Source of the DNA: Calothrix sp. NIES-4105
GTDB lineage: Bacteria > Cyanobacteriota > Cyanobacteriia > Cyanobacteriales > Nostocaceae
Reading direction: 5' to 3'
NCBI RefSeq assembly: GCF_002368415.1
Contig: NZ_AP018290.1
Location: 6,997,717 to 7,061,716 of the forward strand
DNA: 64,000 bases
Shown here: one piece after another, positions 13,307-26,498 of the stretch
How positions within the stretch are numbered: the stretch's first letter is position 1
How the letters are laid out: every line of letters begins with the position of its first letter
Position numbers and translations under genes: made by a program
The notes under the pieces: generated by a model
Database searches by the model: none
The model's input: the letters and a program-made list of their open reading frames with translations, nothing else
Told to the model about the DNA's origin: nothing

Positions 13307-14260
13307 ATGCAAATTATGGATTGGAATAATTGGATATATTTAGCGGTAGGACTGTTGATTGGAGCAGGATTTCGCAGTTTGTTTACTACCTCAAAAAATA
13401 GTACTCAAGTATTAAACAAGTCGTATCAAGACGAAATAAACGAACTCCTTCTTCAAATTAAGCAGTTAAATTTAGCGTACAATCTGGCTGCTGAGATGAG
13501 CCAGTTTAAAGCAGGTTTTTTAGCACGCACTACACATGTGTTGCGTTCACCGCTGAACGGTCTGATTGGTTTGCATCAATTAATTTTGTCTGATTTATGT
13601 GAAAGTCCAGAAGAAGAACGCGAATTTATAGCTCAAGCTCATGAACGGGCATTAAAATTACTGAAGTTAATTGACGAAATTCTCAATGTTGCGCGCGTCC
13701 AACGGGGTACTAATTCTATAAATATTCAGCGCTTACCTCTAAATGAACTGTTACAAGAAGTTAACGACCAGATGTACATGTTGGCAGAAAATCGCAATTA
13801 CCCTTTTAAAATTGTACTGCCATCTGAAATCTATGTGTTAACAGACGCTAAATGGCTGCGGCAAGTACTCATTATTTTGATCGAAACTACAATTGCCCAA
13901 ATGGAAGCACAGATGGAAGAAGGCAGTATTTCTATCTCACAAGGAGGCGCCGATACAAGCAACTACACTTACATTTGGTTAGATATACCAGCTTATGCGT
14001 TTATGAGCAGCGAAGCAATTGATTTATCGCAAGCGATTATGAAAATGGATACTGAAGTTCAACAAAATCCTAGAGAACCTGAAAAACCAGTATCACCAGG
14101 TATGAAATTACTACTAGCTACAACTATACTCGAAGTATTAGGAGGCAAGCTCGAAGTCGTTCCATACCCAGACAACACACAATCACAACTAACAACGAGA
14201 TTACAAATTTCTATCCCCCTAGCACCTCTTGAAACTGCACAGACGATGGCAGCGATTTGA
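13307..14260 (+). CDS. Sensor histidine-kinase-like protein with degenerate ATPase domain
   Basis: The start is taken at ATG 13307; ATG 13316 (MDWNNWIYL) is equally possible, while an upstream TTG is unlikely. A short N-terminal membrane helix is followed by a coiled segment and a HisKA-like dimerisation domain with a recognisable H-box, TTHVLRSPLNGLIGL. The C-terminal half occupies the place of the HATPase_c domain but I see no N-box and no DxGxG; WLDIPAYAF stands where the G1 box would be. It is therefore more likely a regulator or phosphotransfer partner than an active kinase. Its last 50 bases overlap the 3' end of the convergent GNAT gene. Confidence 0.7.
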   Translation: MQIMDWNNWIYLAVGLLIGAGFRSLFTTSKNSTQVLNKSYQDEINELLLQIKQLNLAYNLAAEMSQFKAGFLARTTHVLRSPLNGLIGLHQLILSDLCESPEEEREFIAQAHERALKLLKLIDEILNVARVQRGTNSINIQRLPLNELLQEVNDQMYMLAENRNYPFKIVLPSEIYVLTDAKWLRQVLIILIETTIAQMEAQMEEGSISISQGGADTSNYTYIWLDIPAYAFMSSEAIDLSQAIMKMDTEVQQNPREPEKPVSPGMKLLLATTILEVLGGKLEVVPYPDNTQSQLTTRLQISIPLAPLETAQTMAAI

Positions 14261-14678
14261 AGTGAGATTGATTATATATAACCATTGTTGTTGAGGAATT
14301 TTTCTCAAATCCAATTTTTTCGTAAAATCCCTGTCGATGAGTTGTCATTAAGTATGTGCGCTCAACTCGATTCATTTTAGGGTGACTCAAAACTGTTTCT
14401 ACTAACTTGCTACCAAGCCCTTGAGAACGGTAATCAGGATGAATTACAACGTCCCAGATTGTAGCTCGATATATACCGTCACTTGTCGCCCTTGCAAAAC
14501 CGATTAATCTGTCTCCATCTTTAACTGTTACCACAGGTTCACTATTAGCGACTGCAATACTTAAATCCTCCGTACTGCGTTCAGATGCCCAAAATGCCGC
14601 AATCTCGAATAAATCGCGTAATTGATTCAGGTCTATATCTGATTTGCGGTCGCTAAATTGAATGTGAGCATTACTCAT
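14211..14678 (-). CDS. GNAT-family N-acetyltransferase
   Basis: A 155-residue acetyltransferase. The acetyl-CoA motif is ATIWDVVIHPDYRSQGLGSKL, followed by the C-terminal RQGFYEKIGFEKN. The core strongly resembles the GNAT at 9252 ([24 protein letters not shown] in both), so the two may be distant paralogues. The last roughly 17 residues extend into the histidine-kinase gene on the opposite strand. Substrate unknown. Confidence 0.85.
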   Translation of the reverse strand: MSNAHIQFSDRKSDIDLNQLRDLFEIAAFWASERSTEDLSIAVANSEPVVTVKDGDRLIGFARATSDGIYRATIWDVVIHPDYRSQGLGSKLVETVLSHPKMNRVERTYLMTTHRQGFYEKIGFEKNSSTTMVIYNQSHFKSLPSSVQFQEVLGG

Positions 14679-14835
14679 TTTGACAATACCAGTACAATTT
14701 TTACTAAATGTACAGACTTTTACTCTGCGAAGTGTTTCACAAAATACATTTATGACTATTATTTTAATGATTTATATAAAAAATTTTACAATTTGTTAAG
14801 GTTTGATAACAATTATGAAGCTGTAGCATAAAGTT

Positions 14836-15216
14836 CTACCGACAAATCCACTTCCATAGAGGATGTGTTGCACCTTGTTCTCGAATTAAAAAGACTCGTT
14901 TTTCAAGAAGTTCTCTATCACGTTTAGGTAAGCCAAATAAAATATTTCGACTTTGCCACACTAGTACAGATGCAGTCATCCCGATACAAAGTGCTAAACC
15001 TAAAGTTGCCAGTGGATGGAAGTAAAGACCGTAGCGTACAGCCACCCATGTAAAATACTGGCGCCACAAAGCGATTTCTCCACGTAAATTCCATAAAGAG
15101 ATTGGCGCAATTAAAATCCACAGTACAGCAACAAATAACCACCGACCATAAACTGTTAGCCTATGTAATTTTTGGACTTGTGCATTAAAAATAGGGTCTT
15201 TTTCTAGATTTTCCAT
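14836..15216 (-). CDS. Conserved two-helix membrane protein near secF
   Basis: A 126-residue protein of unknown function with two clear transmembrane helices (about residues 23-43 and 68-90) and a charged C-terminal segment (PKRDRELLEKRVFLIREQG). It follows secF on the same strand with a gap of 77 bases, so it may be co-transcribed with pdhB-secD-secF. I recognise no catalytic motif. Confidence 0.7.
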   Translation of the reverse strand: MENLEKDPIFNAQVQKLHRLTVYGRWLFVAVLWILIAPISLWNLRGEIALWRQYFTWVAVRYGLYFHPLATLGLALCIGMTASVLVWQSRNILFGLPKRDRELLEKRVFLIREQGATHPLWKWICR

Positions 15217-19385: not shown

Positions 19386-19862
19386 ATGTTGGACAAACTC
19401 ATAAAATACTTTGTTTACGCCACAAAAGGGAATATCACAAAAACACAATTAATTAAGTTTTTGTATTTGGCTGATTTGTATTCTGTTAAATGGACTGCTA
19501 ATCAGCTTACCTCTCTAGATTGGTGTTATTACCACTTTGGTCCTTGGCATGAAGATATAGACACAGCCTTAAATAAAATGAATGGGAAAGAAGTTGTGAT
19601 CGAGCGAGAGGGAAATACAACTCTAATTCGGTTAGGCGTTCAAGCAAGTGATATCGATGATTTACAACTACCTGTAAGTCTTAAGTTAGTCCTTGATAAT
19701 ATTAGAAGAGAGTGGGCTGGTTTTGAGAAGCTTCCGCAGTTGTTAGACTATGTGTATAATACTGCTCCAATGCTTGAAGTTAAAGAAAAACATCAACCAG
19801 AAGAAAAGGTTAGACTTAATCTACAAGCAGAAAGAGAAAAATTAATAAGTGAGTTAGGTTAG
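19386..19862 (+). CDS. Panacea-domain (DUF4065/SocA-like) antitoxin
   Basis: A 158-residue protein whose first 100 residues match the Panacea pattern: TKTQLIKFLYLADLYSVKW, then LDWCYYHFGPWHEDIDTAL, the counterpart of the family's YGPVP segment. Panacea domains neutralise many unrelated toxins. The C-terminal 50 residues are charged and probably helical and may contact the partner. The stop is 9 bases before the start of the next gene, whose product looks MazF-like, so this is most likely the antitoxin of a two-gene module. It stands alone on the plus strand among minus-strand genes. Confidence 0.75.
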   Translation: MLDKLIKYFVYATKGNITKTQLIKFLYLADLYSVKWTANQLTSLDWCYYHFGPWHEDIDTALNKMNGKEVVIEREGNTTLIRLGVQASDIDDLQLPVSLKLVLDNIRREWAGFEKLPQLLDYVYNTAPMLEVKEKHQPEEKVRLNLQAEREKLISELG

Positions 19863-19871
19863 GATTATCAA

Positions 19872-20483
19872 GTGGCAGGACAAAAACCAAGACAGAGTTG
19901 GATATATTTTATAAATCCCTACCGATTATCCCTTCGTTGTAAACTCGGTCATACTCACATTTATGATTTAAATGAACCAGGTGAGATTTCGTGTAAAACT
20001 ACTTCTTGCACACAAATAATCAATTCCAGTAGGGTGTTTCGAGGGGAACACCCTTATATTATTTGGACGCACGATGATTTTCAAGATAATTTTAATTATA
20101 TAAAGACTTTTAGTGTTATTCCACTAACTTCCAGTACAATAGAAAGAGATAAAGGTTTGCCAACAGCCTACCCAATTAATGCAACAAGTAGAAATGGACT
20201 TGATAAGCAGTCTTTTGCTTTAATTCATCAAATATGTACTGTTGACGCTAACTGTTTTAAAGATAAAAATGGAGATTGGTTAGTGCGTATAGGGCAAATA
20301 GATAAACCTGATAAAGAAGCTATAGACGAACGTTTAAAATATTTTTTTAATATTCAAGATAAACCGAGCGATGATTGGTTTGTAAATAATGCATCTCCAG
20401 AACTATTGGAGCAAGTATTTAATTGTTTACCTGATGATATCAAACAATCGGCTTTAGAAAAACTAATTGATAATTTGGAGTGA
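19872..20483 (+). CDS. PemK/MazF-like toxin with a Cys/His-containing N-terminus
   Basis: A 203-residue protein starting at GTG 19872. Residues about 55-165 read as a MazF/PemK fold: RGEHPYIIW, FSVIPLTSS, PTAYPINATSRNGLDKQSFALIHQICTV and RIGQIDKPDKEAIDERLKYF, matching the family order of strands and the terminal helix after the L-x-x-I-G-x-I-D-type segment. MazF proteins are ribosome-independent mRNA endonucleases. The first 50 residues contain RCKLGHTH and SCKTTSCTQ, which could form a small zinc site, not usual for MazF. The assignment is inference from pattern; the Panacea partner supports it. Confidence 0.6.
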   Translation: MAGQKPRQSWIYFINPYRLSLRCKLGHTHIYDLNEPGEISCKTTSCTQIINSSRVFRGEHPYIIWTHDDFQDNFNYIKTFSVIPLTSSTIERDKGLPTAYPINATSRNGLDKQSFALIHQICTVDANCFKDKNGDWLVRIGQIDKPDKEAIDERLKYFFNIQDKPSDDWFVNNASPELLEQVFNCLPDDIKQSALEKLIDNLE

Positions 20484-20517: not shown

Positions 20518-20907
20518 TTAACAGTCGATTAATTCTGGTGTTTGGTTGAGAATTTGGCGCCTAATCGAAATGAAATCAAGATACTGTGGTGAATTTAGCT
20601 TATCTAAACGGAAAACTCCGACATTGTGGCAATTCTGGAAAGCTAACTTGACTCCAAAATAACGCTCAACGGCGCCACGAATTGCATCTCCACCCATCAT
20701 TCGTAATAATTGCGCGCGTGCTTGTTCGCTTGGTGGTGGAACTTCATGGTTTGCCCATTCTTCCCCTCTGGTAACTTGTTCTACAAGACCTGATACCACA
20801 CTCCAGGCATAAGGTAAAGATTCTCTGATTGTTTCTACAAACTCTGCCTCGTCAATGTTTCCAGACTGCGCTTGTTCGAGCAGATGCACACTTACGTTTA
20901 AAGACAT
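20518..20907 (-). CDS. SCO5389-family conserved protein
   Basis: The start is ATG 20907 (MSLNVSVHLLEQAQSG) with agagga 6 bases upstream; the frame continues further upstream but with hydrophobic sequence foreign to the family. The 129-residue protein has the family segments FVETIRESLPYAWSVVSGLV, PPPSEQARAQLLR, GGDAIRGAVERYFGVKLAFQ and the conserved Cys and His in FQNCHNVGVF, ending in ILNQTPELIDC. The family is known mainly from actinomycetes and has no assigned function. It is the last minus-strand gene after the metallothionein, separated from it by a long hairpin. Confidence 0.75.
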   Translation of the reverse strand: MSLNVSVHLLEQAQSGNIDEAEFVETIRESLPYAWSVVSGLVEQVTRGEEWANHEVPPPSEQARAQLLRMMGGDAIRGAVERYFGVKLAFQNCHNVGVFRLDKLNSPQYLDFISIRRQILNQTPELIDC

Positions 20908-21018
20908 TTGTTTTCCTCTGTAATGTTTTGGTACAAGCACCTTCATCAATACCAGTGAGAATAATAATCTTTCCATATTAAGTTGCAACACCGCCGCAAA
21001 GAAAAGTAACATACGTAG

Positions 21019-21085
21019 CAACGGATAAAACGGATGTAACGGATAGACTAATAAACCATCCGTTACATCCGTTTATAATCCGTTG
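21019..21085 (-). terminator. Long hairpin between metallothionein and SCO5389-family gene
   Basis: Arms 21019-21044 and 21058-21085 are near-perfect inverted repeats built on cggatgtaacggat, giving about 23 paired bases with one small bulge and a 13-base loop. It starts 7 bases after the metallothionein stop on the minus strand. There is no T-run, so it may process or stabilise mRNA rather than terminate. Confidence 0.65.
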
Positions 21086-21091
21086 CCAGAA

Positions 21092-21259
21092 TTATTTATC
21101 GCACTCACAACCTGTGTGACCGCAACCTTTACCATCAGCATGACCATTTGCACAAGCTTCTCCACAGTAAGGTTTGCCCTCTTTCATCACAGCACTGGAT
21201 AGAGAAACGATACAAAGGCAAGATTCACAAGCGCATTTCATTTGAGTAACGGTCGTCAT
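21092..21259 (-). CDS. bmtA: SmtA-type metallothionein
   Basis: A 55-residue protein read from the minus strand, beginning MTTVTQMKCACESCLCIVSL and ending GKGCGHTGCECDK. Nine cysteines (positions 9, 11, 14, 16, 32, 36, 46, 51, 53) and two histidines (40, 48) occupy the places known from cyanobacterial SmtA/BmtA, which bind Zn, Cd and Cu in a Zn4 cluster. A Shine-Dalgarno-like gaggg lies 8-12 bases before the ATG, and an ArsR/SmtB-type operator lies 49-62 bases upstream. It is downstream of the COG0523/phosphoesterase operon on the same strand. Confidence 0.93.
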   Translation of the reverse strand: MTTVTQMKCACESCLCIVSLSSAVMKEGKPYCGEACANGHADGKGCGHTGCECDK

Positions 21260-21307
21260 AAACTAGCACCCTCATGTAGGCGTGTACATTTATCATGTTA
21301 TCACAGT

Positions 21308-21321
21308 TGAACAGTTATTCA
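21308..21321. promoter_or_regulatory. ArsR/SmtB-like operator of the metallothionein gene
   Basis: tgaacagttattca (TGAACA-N2-TATTCA) is the 6-2-6 inverted repeat recognised by SmtB-type metal-sensing repressors. It lies 49 bases upstream of the bmtA ATG and overlaps a possible minus-strand promoter (ttgaat, 16 bases, taacat). No smtB-like gene is in the window, so the regulator would act from elsewhere. Confidence 0.7.
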
Positions 21322-21378
21322 AGTGTTGCATTAAAAAGTTATAATTTCTTTGCGTTTAGCAATATGAACATTTCTCAG

Positions 21379-22146
21379 TCATGCGCCCGTTCTACTTGAC
21401 TTTATTGCCCGCACGCTTTGGTGTTGAGCTATAAAGCCTTTATTATTGCCGTAATAGACGGTTTTAAAATCAACTTGATTTGTGCTGGGATTGTAAATTG
21501 TATAACTCGCTTGACCTGCGATTTTACCGACATTTCCGACTCCAATAATTTTGCGGGGGTGAGCATTGACGGTATGTGGAGAAATTTGAGTGTCAAGGGT
21601 TGTTACAGAATTGGTTATAGAACCATTAGTGAGTTGGTACTCAAAGCTTAAACCGGAGCGACCGCAAAATAGATTATTTGCTTGCATCCGCGTTACTCGG
21701 TCTAGCATGATTATTGGTGAGGTATTAGGAGTTAATTCTTCGCTGACCGAAACAGTAGAACCGTGAATTAGCAAGCAGTCTAGTTCAAAGAAGCCAAAAT
21801 CAAGCGTACTTAACCAGCGCACTGTTTGACGAGGTACGTATTCCCAGAGTTTTTTAACTGTTTCTGAGCCATATTTCTCTATTAACTCTGTGGGTTCGCC
21901 ATTTCCTGTAATTGCGTGTAATATCAAGCATTGTTCTTCCCACCATCCCTTACAAACTAAAGGTTCTAATTCTCCACGACGGGGTTTAAGCACTCGTTCT
22001 ACTAGCTGTTCTGATTCTTTTGTTGGGCCAACTAAATCACCAATAATATATAGTGCTTCGATGTAACGCTTTTTGCTGATATCCTGTAAAACAGCTTCAT
22101 AAGCCGCAAGGTTTCCTTCAATTCCGCTTAAAATAGCCCATTTCAT
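21379..22146 (-). CDS. Calcineurin-like phosphoesterase homologue lacking metal ligands
   Basis: A 255-residue protein plainly related to the next gene upstream but with the active site altered. The N-terminal motif that should read S-D-x-H-G-N is SGIEGN (Asp to Gly, His to Glu), the usual GNHD position reads CKGWWEE, and the usual GHTH reads CGRSG. GDLVG and LLIHGS remain. It is therefore probably catalytically dead, perhaps a regulatory partner of the upstream enzyme. The 23-base gap to the upstream gene and the common strand indicate one operon. Confidence 0.75.
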   Translation of the reverse strand: MKWAILSGIEGNLAAYEAVLQDISKKRYIEALYIIGDLVGPTKESEQLVERVLKPRRGELEPLVCKGWWEEQCLILHAITGNGEPTELIEKYGSETVKKLWEYVPRQTVRWLSTLDFGFFELDCLLIHGSTVSVSEELTPNTSPIIMLDRVTRMQANNLFCGRSGLSFEYQLTNGSITNSVTTLDTQISPHTVNAHPRKIIGVGNVGKIAGQASYTIYNPSTNQVDFKTVYYGNNKGFIAQHQSVRAIKSSRTGA

Positions 22147-22169
22147 AATATATTATTTACCTTTATCCT

Positions 22170-22979
22170 TTATCTAGTACAAACATGTGTAGGGTCATCA
22201 GCACGTTCAGCAAATTCTAAACCGCGCGCTAAACGCCATGCAAAAATAGCGGGTAAACCGAGTTCAATAATTGCTGCACAAGTTTTTTGATAATCATATG
22301 CAACTTCGCGCAGGGTTACTTCTTTAGTATTGGTATCGTAAATTACATAAGTTGCATTCGGGCGCCCATGTCTTGGTTCACCTACAGAACCAGCGTTGAT
22401 AATTTGTTTTAAAGCTGGAGTAAAACTTCGATTTTCTTGTTTTTTATCACTTACAAGTGAAAAATTTAAGTTTACAGCATCGAGTTTACGGACGTATGGC
22501 ACATGAGTATGACCGCAAAAAAGCATATCTGAGCCTGATGAAATTACTCTCTCTAGTGCAACAAAAGCATCAAGCTCAGGTAGTAAATACTCGTGGTTAC
22601 TGTGGGGACTACCGTGTACAAAAGCCAAATTTTCGTAATGCAAACTATGAGGTAAAGTCGCTAAAAATTCACGATTTTCTGGCTTAAATTGTTTGTTCGT
22701 CCACTCATGCGCGCGAAGTCCTCTTTTTTCTGCGAGTAATGAAGGATGACTACATTCGCAAGCATTTAAACCCTCAACAATATCCTCATCCCAACAACCA
22801 ACACAGGAAGGAATATCCAGAGCGCGAATTTTTTCTACTACTTCATTGGGTTTGGGACCATACCCAACTAAGTCACCCAAACTAAAAATCTTCTCGCACG
22901 AATGATTATCAATATCGAGCAAAACTGCATCAAGCGCTTCGATATTGCCATGAATGCATGATATAACTGCTATTTTCAT
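22170..22979 (-). CDS. Calcineurin-like metallophosphoesterase with Cys-substituted metal site
   Basis: A 269-residue metallophosphoesterase-like protein. It keeps H of the first motif, GDLVGYGP, VHGSPHS and the metal-binding GHTH (CGHTHVPY), but the first-motif Asp is Cys (SCIHGN, residue 8) and the usual GNHD reads VGCWDED. A Cys ligand would change metal preference, which is notable in an operon with a zinc-type operator. The start overlaps the upstream COG0523-like gene by 4 bases (22976-22979), so translation is probably coupled. Confidence 0.8.
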   Translation of the reverse strand: MKIAVISCIHGNIEALDAVLLDIDNHSCEKIFSLGDLVGYGPKPNEVVEKIRALDIPSCVGCWDEDIVEGLNACECSHPSLLAEKRGLRAHEWTNKQFKPENREFLATLPHSLHYENLAFVHGSPHSNHEYLLPELDAFVALERVISSGSDMLFCGHTHVPYVRKLDAVNLNFSLVSDKKQENRSFTPALKQIINAGSVGEPRHGRPNATYVIYDTNTKEVTLREVAYDYQKTCAAIIELGLPAIFAWRLARGLEFAERADDPTHVCTR

Positions 22980-23770
22980 TCCTGAATTCCCTCTAATAAA
23001 ACCTGTTTAACTTGTTGTTGATATTGCCCTATCGCTGCTTCTGACAATAAACAATCTTGCAAAGTTTGCCCTAAAGTTACTTCATCTAGATTACTTCCTA
23101 CAACTTCCAAACCACTAAAGCGCTTGGGTCTTCCTTCCAAGTTGCGTGTTAAATCTAATTCAAGTAATCCTGTCGGTGGCAAAGGAGCTACATACTCAGT
23201 ATAAATTGACCTACCATCGTTAACATCAAAGATACCTTTGGCACGAGTGACATTTCCATAGGCGCCATTAGTAACTTCATACCAAAATTCAACTAAGCTA
23301 TCTTCATCAATAACTTCACCGCTCAGAGGAACTCGCCATATTTGAGTAGGATTATCTATATTAACTGGGGCACCGTACACAACATCTGGCGCCCATTGAG
23401 ATAAAGGAGAATCTTTATTATCTTTGAGATGAGGTGGTAAAACAGCGATAGCGTGGTATGGCTGATTATTTAATATTTTTACTATGGCTGTTGGTTCTAA
23501 ATAAAGCCCAACTTCTATATATACAGTGTCAGCAAATTGTATTTGACTCAAGAATTCTGCTTCTTGCCCATCTTGAAATACTTTAATTGGGGGAAATTCG
23601 GATGCTATACGAGTTTGGTCGATGGGAACCTTACCAGTACCGGGACTGAAATATAATGTTTTGTCATAAGGTGACTTATAGTTGTCGGATGCAACTAATT
23701 GCTGAAAAATCCAAGTAGTTTTGCCACTACCTAATGTTCCAGCTACAACTGTAATTTTTGGTGTAGTCAT
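22976..23770 (-). CDS. Divergent COG0523/CobW-like P-loop protein
   Basis: A 264-residue protein with Walker A GTLGSGKTT (residues about 11-19) and a C-terminal part that resembles the CobW C domain (WYEVTNGAYGNVTRAKGIFD). The CxCC metal motif of COG0523 GTPases is absent, and the usual guanine-specificity and switch motifs are hard to place, so it may be a divergent or specialised paralogue of the gene upstream. It sits between that gene (69-base gap) and the phosphoesterase, which it overlaps. Confidence 0.7.
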   Translation of the reverse strand: MTTPKITVVAGTLGSGKTTWIFQQLVASDNYKSPYDKTLYFSPGTGKVPIDQTRIASEFPPIKVFQDGQEAEFLSQIQFADTVYIEVGLYLEPTAIVKILNNQPYHAIAVLPPHLKDNKDSPLSQWAPDVVYGAPVNIDNPTQIWRVPLSGEVIDEDSLVEFWYEVTNGAYGNVTRAKGIFDVNDGRSIYTEYVAPLPPTGLLELDLTRNLEGRPKRFSGLEVVGSNLDEVTLGQTLQDCLLSEAAIGQYQQQVKQVLLEGIQE

Positions 23771-23839
23771 TTAAATTAAGATTATTAAAACAATAATGGC
23801 AAGCACACAGTTCGTGATGCCTGTGCTACTTTGAACATA

Positions 23840-24859
23840 TCAATATATCAGACATTGCTGTAAACGAGAATGAATTTGATTTGCATCGATATGGCGCCCA
23901 ATAAAAACAAGCTGATTTTTGGGTGCAGTATTCCATTCCGAAGCATCCAAGTGGTAACGAGGACCGCTAAGTTGAAAGATATGACGCAAAGGACTATCGT
24001 CAAACCAAAGAATACCCTTCGCTCGAAATACGTTATTTGGCATTTCTTCAAGTAAAAAATGCTCAAACTTATTAACGTCAAAGGGTTTATCAACCTGAAA
24101 AGACACTGAGACAAACCCATCATTTTCTAGATGGTGCGAGTGATGATGGTCATGGTGATGATGGTCATGGTGATGATGTTCATGATGGTCATTTACAAAA
24201 ACATGCTCATCATTAGGGGTTAATTCGACACCTAAAATTAGAGGTAAAGCAACTTTTCCATAGTTGGTACGGAGTATTTTTGCTGTATTTTTTTTATTGC
24301 GTATAAAATTTTCTAGCTCTACTAATTTTTCTTCGCTTACCAAGTCAACTTTGTTAAGAAGAATAATATCACCGTATGTAATCTGTTTTAATGCAGCTTC
24401 ACTCTCAAAATGATTTTTATCAAAACTTTCAGCATCAACAACAGTAAGTATAGAATCTAAATTCGTTAAATCTCTTAGCTCTGTTCCTAAAAACGTCAAT
24501 ACAATAGGCAAAGGGTCAGCAACACCAGTAGTCTCAATCACCATATAATCAATACGGTCTTCTCGTTCCAAAACTCTATAGACCGCATCAACCAAACCAT
24601 CATTAATAGTACAGCAAATACAACCATTGCTCAGTTCCACCATATCCTCGTCCATAGAAACGAGTAATTGGCTATCTATATTAATGTCACCAAACTCATT
24701 TACCAAAACAGCAACCTTCATATCCTGCTTGTTTTGGAGTATTTGGTTAAGCAACGTAGTTTTCCCACTGCCCAAAAACCCCGTAATCATAGTCACTGGC
24801 ATCCCGCGCTTAGGTATTTCAATATTATTATCCAAGTTAATAGAAGTCGCACTAGTCAT
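23840..24859 (-). CDS. COG0523 GTPase, putative zinc metallochaperone
   Basis: A 339-residue G3E GTPase with Walker A GFLGSGKTTLL, the metal-binding CxCC motif in NGCICCTIN, ETTGVADP and NKVD (guanine specificity), then a histidine-rich stretch (HEHHHHDHHHHDHHHSHH, about residues 227-244) and a CobW C domain (FRAKGILWF). His-rich COG0523 proteins under Zur control act as zinc chaperones. The ATG is preceded by aaggagag, and a Zur-box-like palindrome lies 81-95 bases upstream. It is the first gene of the minus-strand operon that includes both phosphoesterases. Confidence 0.9.
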   Translation of the reverse strand: MTSATSINLDNNIEIPKRGMPVTMITGFLGSGKTTLLNQILQNKQDMKVAVLVNEFGDINIDSQLLVSMDEDMVELSNGCICCTINDGLVDAVYRVLEREDRIDYMVIETTGVADPLPIVLTFLGTELRDLTNLDSILTVVDAESFDKNHFESEAALKQITYGDIILLNKVDLVSEEKLVELENFIRNKKNTAKILRTNYGKVALPLILGVELTPNDEHVFVNDHHEHHHHDHHHHDHHHSHHLENDGFVSVSFQVDKPFDVNKFEHFLLEEMPNNVFRAKGILWFDDSPLRHIFQLSGPRYHLDASEWNTAPKNQLVFIGRHIDANQIHSRLQQCLIY

Positions 24860-24939
24860 AATCTCTCCTTATATATACAACGGTGCCGCATAGCACCTTT
24901 AAAGCTAAACATCGCAAAACTATATCATCATAGCAATAA

Positions 24940-24954
24940 TGATAACAATTATCA
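24940..24954. promoter_or_regulatory. Zur box upstream of the COG0523 operon
   Basis: tgataacaattatca is a 7-1-7 palindrome (one mismatch) matching the cyanobacterial Zur consensus TGATAATNATTATCA. It lies 81 bases before the ATG of the COG0523 GTPase, where bound Zur would block the promoter when zinc is sufficient. Confidence 0.8.
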
Positions 24955-25032: not shown

Positions 25033-25425
25033 TTATTTAGTTTGTTCTTGGTGATAACGATTTAGTAAACTTTGGATAAGGGTAGAGGATGCCCGAAAGG
25101 TAGTTTGCTGCAATTGTTTTATAGCATTAGGAAAGTCAATTAATTCTTGAGTACCAGCCCGATAGAGAATACCAAGTAACCCTGTAACGGTAAGGTTACG
25201 TTGAAGTGCTTCAACCCGCGCGTCCATATCATCAAGAATAATTAAGGTAGCGTTTAGTTGGAAAGCAAGCGAAATAGCTTCTTGCTCACCTGCACCAAGT
25301 TTACTCGGAAGATCAGGAAGCAGTGTAGTAACTGGTTGAATATCTAGCCAACTTGGAGGTAATATTTCAACGTGATTAATCAGGATAAGGTAGCACAGAG
25401 GTGAGGTGTCACAAACAACGGTCAT
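25033..25425 (-). CDS. DUF3368 PIN-domain toxin
   Basis: A 130-residue PIN-fold protein: N-terminal VVCDTSPLCYLI with the first acidic residue, GAGEQEAISLAF with the central glutamate, and LIILDDMDARVEA with the later acidic pair. These fit the DUF3368 branch of VapC-like ribonuclease toxins. Its ATG overlaps the stop of the preceding UPF0175-like gene by 4 bases, the usual antitoxin-toxin layout. Confidence 0.8.
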   Translation of the reverse strand: MTVVCDTSPLCYLILINHVEILPPSWLDIQPVTTLLPDLPSKLGAGEQEAISLAFQLNATLIILDDMDARVEALQRNLTVTGLLGILYRAGTQELIDFPNAIKQLQQTTFRASSTLIQSLLNRYHQEQTK

Positions 25426-25691
25426 AGTTGGGCAAGGGCTTGGTCTATAGCTTGTAAATCTTGGTCGAGGTCTGCTTCAGTGTAGGGAAGGTAGGCTTCG
25501 TGGGCTTTTAGAAAGGCATCGGTTGCCATATGTCCAAGAAAGTTGAGAATGCGTTGCACTTCAGCAGTAGAAAGCTGGCGACTGCGATAAGCATCAACGA
25601 CCAGGGACTCAAGCGCGCGTCTCGATAGTTCCTCAGGGTAAAGAGCGAGTTGGTAAACAATATCGTCGGGAATGGTAAGAGTAATTTGCAT
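25422..25691 (-). CDS. UPF0175-family antitoxin
   Basis: An 89-residue protein starting MQITLTIPDDIVYQLALYPE, followed by RALESLVVDAYRSRQLSTAEVQRIL and a C-terminal acidic tail. The central helix-turn-helix-like part and the partner gene identify it as a UPF0175-type antitoxin, with the N-terminus probably binding DNA and the C-terminus the toxin. It is immediately upstream of, and overlaps, the DUF3368 toxin gene. Confidence 0.8.
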   Translation of the reverse strand: MQITLTIPDDIVYQLALYPEELSRRALESLVVDAYRSRQLSTAEVQRILNFLGHMATDAFLKAHEAYLPYTEADLDQDLQAIDQALAQL

Positions 25692-25870
25692 TCTTTTGGT
25701 AAATATCTCTAATATTATATTATAAACAAGCTTACTATAATATGTAGTAGTTAAATACTAAGATTGATAAGCTTATAATTTATCGTACTCACTTTACCCA
25801 ACCTACAATTGAGCGCATCAAGTCCGATCCGAACGTAGCACGTTAATTTCCGGTCTTCTTGCTTGACTTT

Positions 25871-26293
25871 TTAAATAGTCCAGTCTTCATAACGCAGCTC
25901 TATAATCTTGCTAAAATCAGAAAAGTTACGTGTTAAAAGCACAGCATCATTTGCAATTGTACAAGCTGCAATCTTCAAATCCATTGTGCCAAGTCTTGGG
26001 TAAAGTTTTCGTAAATTCCGAAACACCAATGCTGATTGCACATCAAAGCTCACAACTGGAATATTCCTGAAAATCTCTATATGCTCTTCTAACTGGCTAT
26101 ATGCTTCTACTTGCGCTTCAATAGTCCTTGCCTTTGCCATATAGCTTAACCAGCCACGTGTTTGTTCTTCGTAGCTAACTACAGTAGTGGCTATTTCAGT
26201 TGCAGCAACGGATTGTAATTTCGCTTCTAGAGTTATCGCTCCACGTCCACCACGCTGTAAAATTGTTAAGTGGTCGGTATCAAGTAGATACAT
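25871..26293 (-). CDS. VapC-type PIN-domain toxin
   Basis: The start is set at ATG 26293 (MYLLDTDHLTILQRG); ATG 26308 in frame would add five residues. The 140-residue PIN domain has the first acidic motif LLDTDHLT, a central glutamate in VVSYEEQTRG, and the C-terminal GTMDLKIAACTIANDAVLLTRN with the conserved Asp and the N-D/F-x-x-F tail (NFSDFSKI). It is likely a ribonuclease toxin of tRNA or rRNA. It overlaps the upstream small gene by 14 bases. Confidence 0.85.
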   Translation of the reverse strand: MYLLDTDHLTILQRGGRGAITLEAKLQSVAATEIATTVVSYEEQTRGWLSYMAKARTIEAQVEAYSQLEEHIEIFRNIPVVSFDVQSALVFRNLRKLYPRLGTMDLKIAACTIANDAVLLTRNFSDFSKIIELRYEDWTI

Positions 26294-26498
26294 CCTCTCG
26301 CTCTTCACTTAAATCCAAACGTTGAGATTCACGATACTCACGTCCGAGACTCATTGCTTCTTCAAAAGCGGGATTATCTTTAAATTTGCCGGCAACTTTT
26401 TTCCACCACGGAGTGGCAGTTTCTGCCTGATGTTCAAGCTGATTTTTGAGACGTGCGACTTCAGCTTCTAAAGCTGCTACTCGTTCCTCAAGTTGCAT
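26280..26498 (-). CDS. Coiled-coil antitoxin partner of the VapC toxin
   Basis: A 72-residue protein: a leading heptad coiled coil (about residues 3-25, EERVAALEAEVARLKNQLE), then WWKKVAGKFKDNPAFEEAMSLGREYRES. The second part is typical of small cyanobacterial antitoxins that precede PIN toxins. No DNA-binding motif is visible. The overlap with the toxin gene supports the pairing. Confidence 0.75.
   Translation of the reverse strand: MQLEERVAALEAEVARLKNQLEHQAETATPWWKKVAGKFKDNPAFEEAMSLGREYRESQRLDLSEEREDVST

Follow-up and report, generated by a model that had tools for sequence, protein, structure and literature searches.

What are two calcineurin-like proteins and a member of the SCO5389 family doing among genes for zinc handling? 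The question is raised by an island of six genes, all on the minus strand (20518-24859), in a stretch of 64,000 nucleotides (hereafter, the window) from the 12.04-Mb, 8-contig genome of Calothrix sp. NIES-4105. A sequence-only reading of the window had named, in order of transcription, a His-rich COG0523 GTPase, a divergent COG0523-like protein (here COGdiv), two calcineurin-like proteins (MPP1 and MPP2), a metallothionein and a SCO5389-family protein, and domain matches and profile comparison recovered all six on that strand. As the best explanation taken as a whole, to which we give slightly more than an even chance, COGdiv, MPP1 and MPP2 (the triad) form a module for zinc allocation that Zur represses and in which MPP1 carries two zinc ions with thiolate ligands; the triad is an ancient module conserved in cyanobacteria from Nostocaceae to genomes of 1.7 Mb; and the island was put together locally from pieces of the Zur regulon and a metallothionein. 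For the question of how zinc is distributed under scarcity, and with which partners COG0523-type chaperones work, a conserved Zur-linked partner set with a rebuilt metal site offers a directly testable candidate in abundant phototrophs.

Gene order and co-occurrence of the triad

To assess conservation in Nostocaceae, we took the best 41 COGdiv matches outside NIES-4105 and discarded one near a contig end, yielding 40 loci (matches occur in 90 of the 145 genomes of the family, remnants and weaker paralogues included). COGdiv and MPP1 were adjacent in all 40 loci, and MPP2 came next in 37, was displaced in 2 and fell outside the fetched stretch in 1. A wider set was assembled from the best 80 matches of one scan and 20 distant genomes, resulting in 100 loci, 98 of them distinct. 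Among the distinct loci, COGdiv was adjacent to MPP1 (within 800 nt) in 92 and MPP2 was adjacent (within 900 nt) in 84. Of the 6 loci without adjacent COGdiv, 4 lie at contig ends, as do several of the 14 without adjacent MPP2. The triad order also held in ten loci from probable marine picocyanobacteria, a family whose genomes span 1.7-2.9 Mb. The outcome that the sequence-only reading had named as fatal, an order unique to one genome, did not occur (40/40 in Nostocaceae, 92/98 in the wider set); what is conserved is the order of the triad, and the six-gene order was seen in the same genus only, among the loci examined.

For co-occurrence we set the orthologue cut-offs ourselves, at E ≤ 1e-40 for MPP1 (fragments included; next match 2.5e-22) and E ≤ 1e-30 for MPP2 (next match 5.6e-22). 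Across 388 genomes of the class, MPP1 was detected in 145 and MPP2 in 153: both in 141, MPP1 only in 4, MPP2 only in 12 and neither in 231, these being counts of genomes, several of them incomplete, and not of independent events, with relatedness uncorrected.

Genes next to the triad were named from sequence. In the 40 loci plus the window, FolE-like and HemB-like genes each recurred in 16 of 41 and HisI-like genes in 8 of 41, and a close COG0523 gene lay upstream of the triad in 20 of the 40 Nostocaceae loci, with a partial match in one of the 20. Similar neighbours occur on plasmids. The triad of Trichormus variabilis plasmid A is surrounded by hemB, thrS, a COG0523-type gene, hisI and genes for a zinc ABC substrate-binding protein (znuA) and an ABC ATPase (znuC); folE and hemB adjoin the triad on three Picosynechococcus plasmids; and thrS, a COG0523-type gene and folE are its neighbours on a Dolichospermum plasmid. 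The Trichormus plasmid (L292:1-10618) was typed as conjugative; it unites these metal-transporter genes, hemB, thrS, the COG0523-type gene and hisI with the triad and may be a mobile zinc-starvation kit. On possible phage carriage, two distant relatives, at 27-31% identity, were found in viral contigs.

Metal sites of MPP1 and MPP2, and their P-loop partner

MPP1 (22170-22979, minus strand; its gene overlaps COGdiv by 4 bases, 22976-22979) matches Metallophos_2 with 74 bits, and the Sphaerobacter thermophilus structure 3RQZ was both a strong sequence match (E 3e-32) and the top-ranked Foldseek match (4e-18). We aligned 141 rows (128 distinct sequences) and compared them with the ligand motifs of the fold. 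The motif-I Asp, at position 8, is Cys in 139 of 141 rows and Asp in 2; the motif-III Asn is Cys62 and the His of GNHD is Trp63 (giving GCWD) in all 141; and H10, D36, H122, H157, H159, C74, C76, C155, H265 and C267 are likewise invariant. Four non-cyanobacterial relatives keep both the Asp and the Asn, with GNHD in two and GNYD in two, and 3RQZ retains the motif-I Asp and GNHD. One of these four, from Paraclostridium (L295:97-1732), carries a CxC stretch; its gene is flanked by ArsR and ACR3 arsenite efflux genes, which again links this fold to metals.

By the geometry of the calcineurin fold, one Cys would be added to the ligands of each of the two metals. Replacement enzymes that spare zinc change in the opposite direction, and for that reason we favour a high-affinity zinc site; on this residue pattern, MPP1 likely has a zinc site with thiolate ligands. 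MPP1 would most likely bind two zinc ions, at Cys8-His10-Asp36-His159 and at Asp36-Cys62-His122-His157, and perhaps a third at Cys74/Cys76/His265/Cys267, and it is probably no longer an ordinary phosphoesterase. Judged from titles and the first lines of abstracts, a literature search on Cys metal ligands in the calcineurin fold returned nothing that seemed to fit.

MPP2 (21379-22146, minus strand) scores below the Metallophos cut-off, and profile comparison joins it to MPP1 (probability 99.7) as a degenerate paralogue in which five of seven metal ligands are lost. In an alignment of 130 rows these five positions are Gly8 (130), Glu10 (108), Trp68 (128), Arg163 (129) and Gly165 (117); the two kept ligands are Asp37 (126) and His128 (130). 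The sequence-only reading was right about the fold of both proteins and overlooked the two Cys substitutions in MPP1 and the loss of ligands in MPP2.

COGdiv (22976-23770, minus strand) is the first gene of the triad. Its window protein has a P-loop and falls below the CobW_C cut-off, and 37 of 41 aligned members match CobW_C at E ≤ 0.01. The P-loop Lys is present in 132 of 135 rows, the other 3 being gapped, and Glu86 in 134 of 135. No CxCC motif was found in the window protein or in the conserved columns of the 41 aligned sequences. An identity as an ordinary COG0523 GTPase was considered and rejected: profile comparison aligned the P-loop region only (probability 80), and Foldseek returned only weak SIMIBI-type and unrelated matches. 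Comparison of COGdiv with solved structures gave T-cell-receptor matches, which we took as chance. The sequence-only reading had described a divergent COG0523-like protein and had passed over the missing CxCC. The gene upstream of it (23840-24859, minus strand) encodes a His-rich COG0523 GTPase, a putative zinc metallochaperone, with cobW (190.9 bits) and CobW_C domains, a Walker A motif, a His-rich stretch and a CxCC motif (GCICC) whose residues C80, I81, C82 and C83 are invariant in 20 aligned sequences.

Zur-type boxes and the other island genes

We searched for Zur-type boxes matching at least 12 of 14 scored positions within 150 nt of COGdiv, counting distinct upstream regions and using shuffled sequences and control open reading frames (ORFs) as background. 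Boxes were found in 21 of 40 Nostocaceae loci, 28 of 68 in the best-80 set, 1 of 10 in the picocyanobacteria-type family and 2 of 7 in other distant genomes, together 52 of 125, against 0-0.6% of shuffles and 5.7% of control ORFs (n=157, from the same wider loci). This test supersedes an initial 350-nt scan, the control of which (446 ORFs, 57 at ≥12/14) may include zinc neighbours. In the picocyanobacteria-type family, 11/14 was reached in 6 of 10 regions versus 2.0% of shuffles, and there may be weak Zur-type sites there.

The SCO5389-family protein of the window (20518-20907, minus strand; NF040488 203.6 bits with a cut-off of 75, also PF20704) belongs to a family (PF20704) found in 24 of 291 class genomes. 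We analysed 20 cyanobacterial loci, a set that excludes the locus of the window and three genomes in which the match was fragmentary or below threshold. A Zur-type box (≥12/14) lies at -53 to -84 in 18 of the 20 (0.3% of shuffles), and COGdiv, whole or as a piece, directly follows SCO5389 in 12 of the 20. In the wider triad set SCO5389 occurs near the triad in 2 of 100 loci (L129, and L155 as a fragment), both times just before COGdiv. By its boxes, SCO5389 is linked to Zur independently of the island and would be a further member of the Zur regulon. The sequence-only reading had missed these boxes elsewhere. A literature search on SCO5389 returned one table entry, which gives no function. The sequence-only reading had listed the phosphoesterases and the SCO5389 protein as unusual members with no known role in metal handling: triad order, co-occurrence and Zur-type boxes elsewhere bear out their place in the island, and the suspicion about SCO5389 is upheld because its boxes and its adjacency to COGdiv recur far from NIES-4105. 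For the triad and for SCO5389 alike, a link to Zur has good support.

Published expression data bear on the triad in Picosynechococcus PCC 7002, in which hemB-II, folE-II, G0131 and G0132 are reported to rise in a zur mutant and with TPEN, and G0129 (a 'phosphoesterase') and G0130 are reported not to rise without Zur (PMC4628125). On plasmid pAQ7 of this strain (L299:23717-25488) we found COGdiv cut after its first 147 residues, which are 99% identical to COGdiv of PCC 7117, MPP1 missing, MPP2 reduced to its last 130 residues, and in between an ORF that matches none of the triad proteins. A Zur-type box with a full 14/14 match separates the COGdiv remnant from the FAD gene. The tags were mapped by gene order and description, G0131 to the truncated COGdiv and G0129 to the MPP2 fragment. 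On this mapping, triad gene 1 is controlled by Zur and the silent genes lie beyond the rearrangement, and the broken triad may explain the two unresponsive genes of this Zur cluster as a remnant and an extra gene.

In the window, the palindrome that the sequence-only reading had likened to a Zur box lies before the first gene (24940-24954, TGATAACAATTATCA). It is a 7-1-7 palindrome matching 13 of 14 scored positions, and it is kept at 12-13 of 14 in all five loci of the genus, the window included. Zur-type sites with at most 3 mismatches are over-represented throughout the window (29 versus 6.85 expected), so the case for this box rests on its position and conservation. A genome-wide scan at the same threshold was uninformative (2695 matches versus 2879 for a reversed control). 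A weak Zur-type site before SCO5389 (20956-20970) matches 11 of 14 positions in the window and 10 of 14 in three relatives of the same genus, and at -63 it lies within the range of the SCO5389 boxes elsewhere.

The metallothionein (21092-21259, minus strand; PF02069 91.8 bits with a cut-off of 33) is the sole copy found in the genome. The 119-base gap between MPP2 and this gene holds a predicted SmtB/ArsR-type operator (21308-21321, TGAACAGTTATTCA), perfect on a 12-base pattern and the single match in the window with at most one mismatch. With 0.72 such matches expected in the window and one present in 50 of 100 shuffles, the count proves nothing alone; the 16-bp core is identical in four members of the genus, the window included, despite differing flanks. 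The metallothionein thus has its own ArsR/SmtB-type site, as the sequence-only reading had proposed. Both this site and the Zur-type box are, judging by their (near-)identity in relatives with different flanks, regulatory footprints. The genome contains 16 ArsR-type (PF01022) matches, candidate regulators of the SmtB-type site.

Between the metallothionein and SCO5389, a gap of 184 bases holds a very stable hairpin (21016-21088, minus strand; -48.7 kcal/mol, z -8.5), a possible transcript end at which no T-run was seen. The 119-base gap with its SmtB-type site and the 184-base gap with its hairpin make three transcription units likelier than one and suggest separate transcripts within the island. 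A single operon of six genes was considered and rejected as the likeliest arrangement, on account of the SmtB-type site, the hairpin and how seldom metallothionein was found at the triad elsewhere. Metallothionein and SCO5389 follow the triad in 3 of the 40 Nostocaceae loci, all of the same genus, and a fourth locus of the genus (L063) has neither at the triad. In the wider set, tblastn detected a metallothionein near the triad in 2 of 100 loci, both on the other strand: 2.9 kb past MPP2 in L190, and 175 bases past MPP2 in a Rhizonema record (L124, 5261-5419; 79% identical). From this opposite-strand Rhizonema copy, metallothionein reached the triad in another arrangement too. The metallothionein looks like a separate unit of the usual SmtB type, which became part of the island in this genus. 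Of the coupled expression proposed earlier, the 4-base overlap of COGdiv and MPP1 remains, and a single run of six genes is not supported. The further idea that one coupled run serves both low and high zinc fares poorly, given the suggested separate transcripts and a metallothionein seldom beside the triad elsewhere.

Toxin-antitoxin-like pairs lie on both flanks of the island. On the opposite strand and adjoining it (19386-20483) are a Panacea/SocA-type antitoxin-like gene and a PemK-like toxin gene; on the other side (25033-26498) are a DUF3368-like gene (below its cut-off) and a UPF0175 gene, then a PIN-type-toxin-like gene and its partner, both assigned by eye. Elsewhere in the window, a Zur-type site with 2 mismatches (14804-14818) precedes a minus-strand ORF (14211-14678, an acetyltransferase by eye), about 126 bases from its start, and sits just past the end of another ORF (14836-15216).

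Proposed role, alternatives and known systems

Under the favoured reading, the triad would be repressed by zinc-loaded Zur in many lineages and made when zinc is short. MPP1, the P-loop protein COGdiv and the ligand-poor MPP2 would then form a complex and probably hold or hand over scarce zinc, acting alongside the COG0523 chaperone and FolE, HisI, HemB and ThrS as replacement enzymes. More tentatively, and as something we consider possible but would not bet on, MPP1 may found a new class of the calcineurin fold: a non-enzymatic zinc-allocation device with a thiolate-containing di-zinc site and a possible third CxC/HxC site, accompanied by a P-loop partner and a ligand-poor paralogue since early cyanobacterial history, very small picocyanobacterial genomes included.

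Several observations weigh against a Zur-repressed zinc-allocation module. Fur boxes in some bacteria resemble the Zur-type consensus that we used, so a box alone is no proof of Zur. At 12/14, 73 of the 125 COGdiv upstream regions have no close box (some are internal to Zur operons), and the picocyanobacteria-type triads are weakly boxed (1 of 10). ZnuA-family promoters had boxes at ≥12/14 in 2 of 30 cases and were unusable as a positive control, the first-ranked hits being possibly, at a guess, manganese-type binding proteins. Two Crocosphaera MPP1 sequences (L162 and L164) have Asp at position 8 with Cys62 kept, and the missing GNHD His says little about whether catalysis was lost, the residue being Tyr in 2 of 4 outside relatives. 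The structure models are of moderate confidence (mean pLDDT 72.7 and 70.6), and the C74/C76 loop and the stretch near C267 are among their least confident parts. In the published account of PCC 7002, G0129, which we mapped to the MPP2 fragment, is unresponsive to loss of zur (PMC4628125), and the account of an eight-gene Zur regulon in WH8102, a strain in which presence of the triad is not established, names no phosphoesterase (PMC9337993). Zur control is therefore not universal, given the weak picocyanobacterial boxes and this regulon, and in marine picocyanobacteria the triad may work without it. Literature searches combining Zur or zinc limitation with metallophosphoesterase or calcineurin-like returned nothing relevant, and the word 'phosphoesterase' is absent from the main text of PMC10957091, PMC2770081, PMC9337993, PMC12058595 and PMC6103462.

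MPP1 could still act as a phosphoesterase, adapted to zinc or some other soft metal, that hydrolyses a nucleotide or other phosphate made in zinc scarcity, with MPP2 as its regulatory subunit. Its five unsubstituted ligands are invariant in all 141 rows, its nearest solved relatives include an Ap4A hydrolase, and the Tyr of the outside relatives means that replacing the GNHD His need not end catalysis; against this, Cys replaces two of the seven ligands and Trp the GNHD His in all or almost all of the 141 rows, and the paired paralogue MPP2 lacks most ligands. We judge a retained enzyme unlikely, if worth keeping in mind. The conserved Cys residues could instead be redox switches in a triad that answers another stress (iron, cobalt or redox) and sits only sometimes in Zur operons. 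Such a role would suit the weakly boxed triads of picocyanobacteria-type genomes, a WH8102 regulon account that does not name the triad (PMC9337993) and the resemblance of the box to Fur boxes; it fits poorly with recurrent neighbours that are zinc-enzyme paralogues, plus ZnuA on one plasmid, and with the rise of the gene mapped to the COGdiv remnant in the zur mutant and with TPEN (PMC4628125), and we regard it as improbable.

That the six genes are a chance neighbourhood in which the COG0523 gene is the sole Zur target is very improbable. Metallothionein and SCO5389 stand jointly at the triad in one genus only, among the loci examined, as a chance neighbourhood would predict, but the order, co-occurrence and boxes of the triad across the class and the boxes of SCO5389 already contradict chance for the triad and SCO5389; for the metallothionein it is possible.

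The preferred reading, a zinc-allocation module under Zur, can be set beside known systems. MPP1 shares its fold with the S. thermophilus metallophosphoesterase (3RQZ) and the SapH Ap4A hydrolase (3QFM), which are among its best sequence and structure matches, and differs from 3RQZ in having Cys for the motif-I Asp and GCWD for GNHD. COGdiv resembles YjiA and the COG0523 G3E GTPases in its P-loop and probably in a CobW_C-like end; unlike them it has no CxCC, and only the P-loop region aligns. The pAQ7 cluster of PCC 7002 (Ludwig et al. 2015, PMC4628125) likewise combines hemB-II, folE-II, an FAD protein and a GTPase-like gene, mapped here to the COGdiv remnant, and is derepressed without Zur; there, however, the triad is broken, and the authors noted the 'phosphoesterase' and its neighbour as unresponsive. 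The Zur regulon of Anabaena sp. PCC 7120 also contains putative COG0523-type genes, hemB2, thrS2, folE2 and znuABC, whereas its row in the regulon table names no phosphoesterase or SCO5389-type protein (PMC6103462). In nmtA-AzuR of the same strain, as in the window, a metallothionein gene lies behind an SmtB/ArsR-type inverted repeat; the regulator is encoded elsewhere, as is probably true in NIES-4105 too; the difference is that the NIES-4105 metallothionein adjoins a Zur island (PMC8790569).

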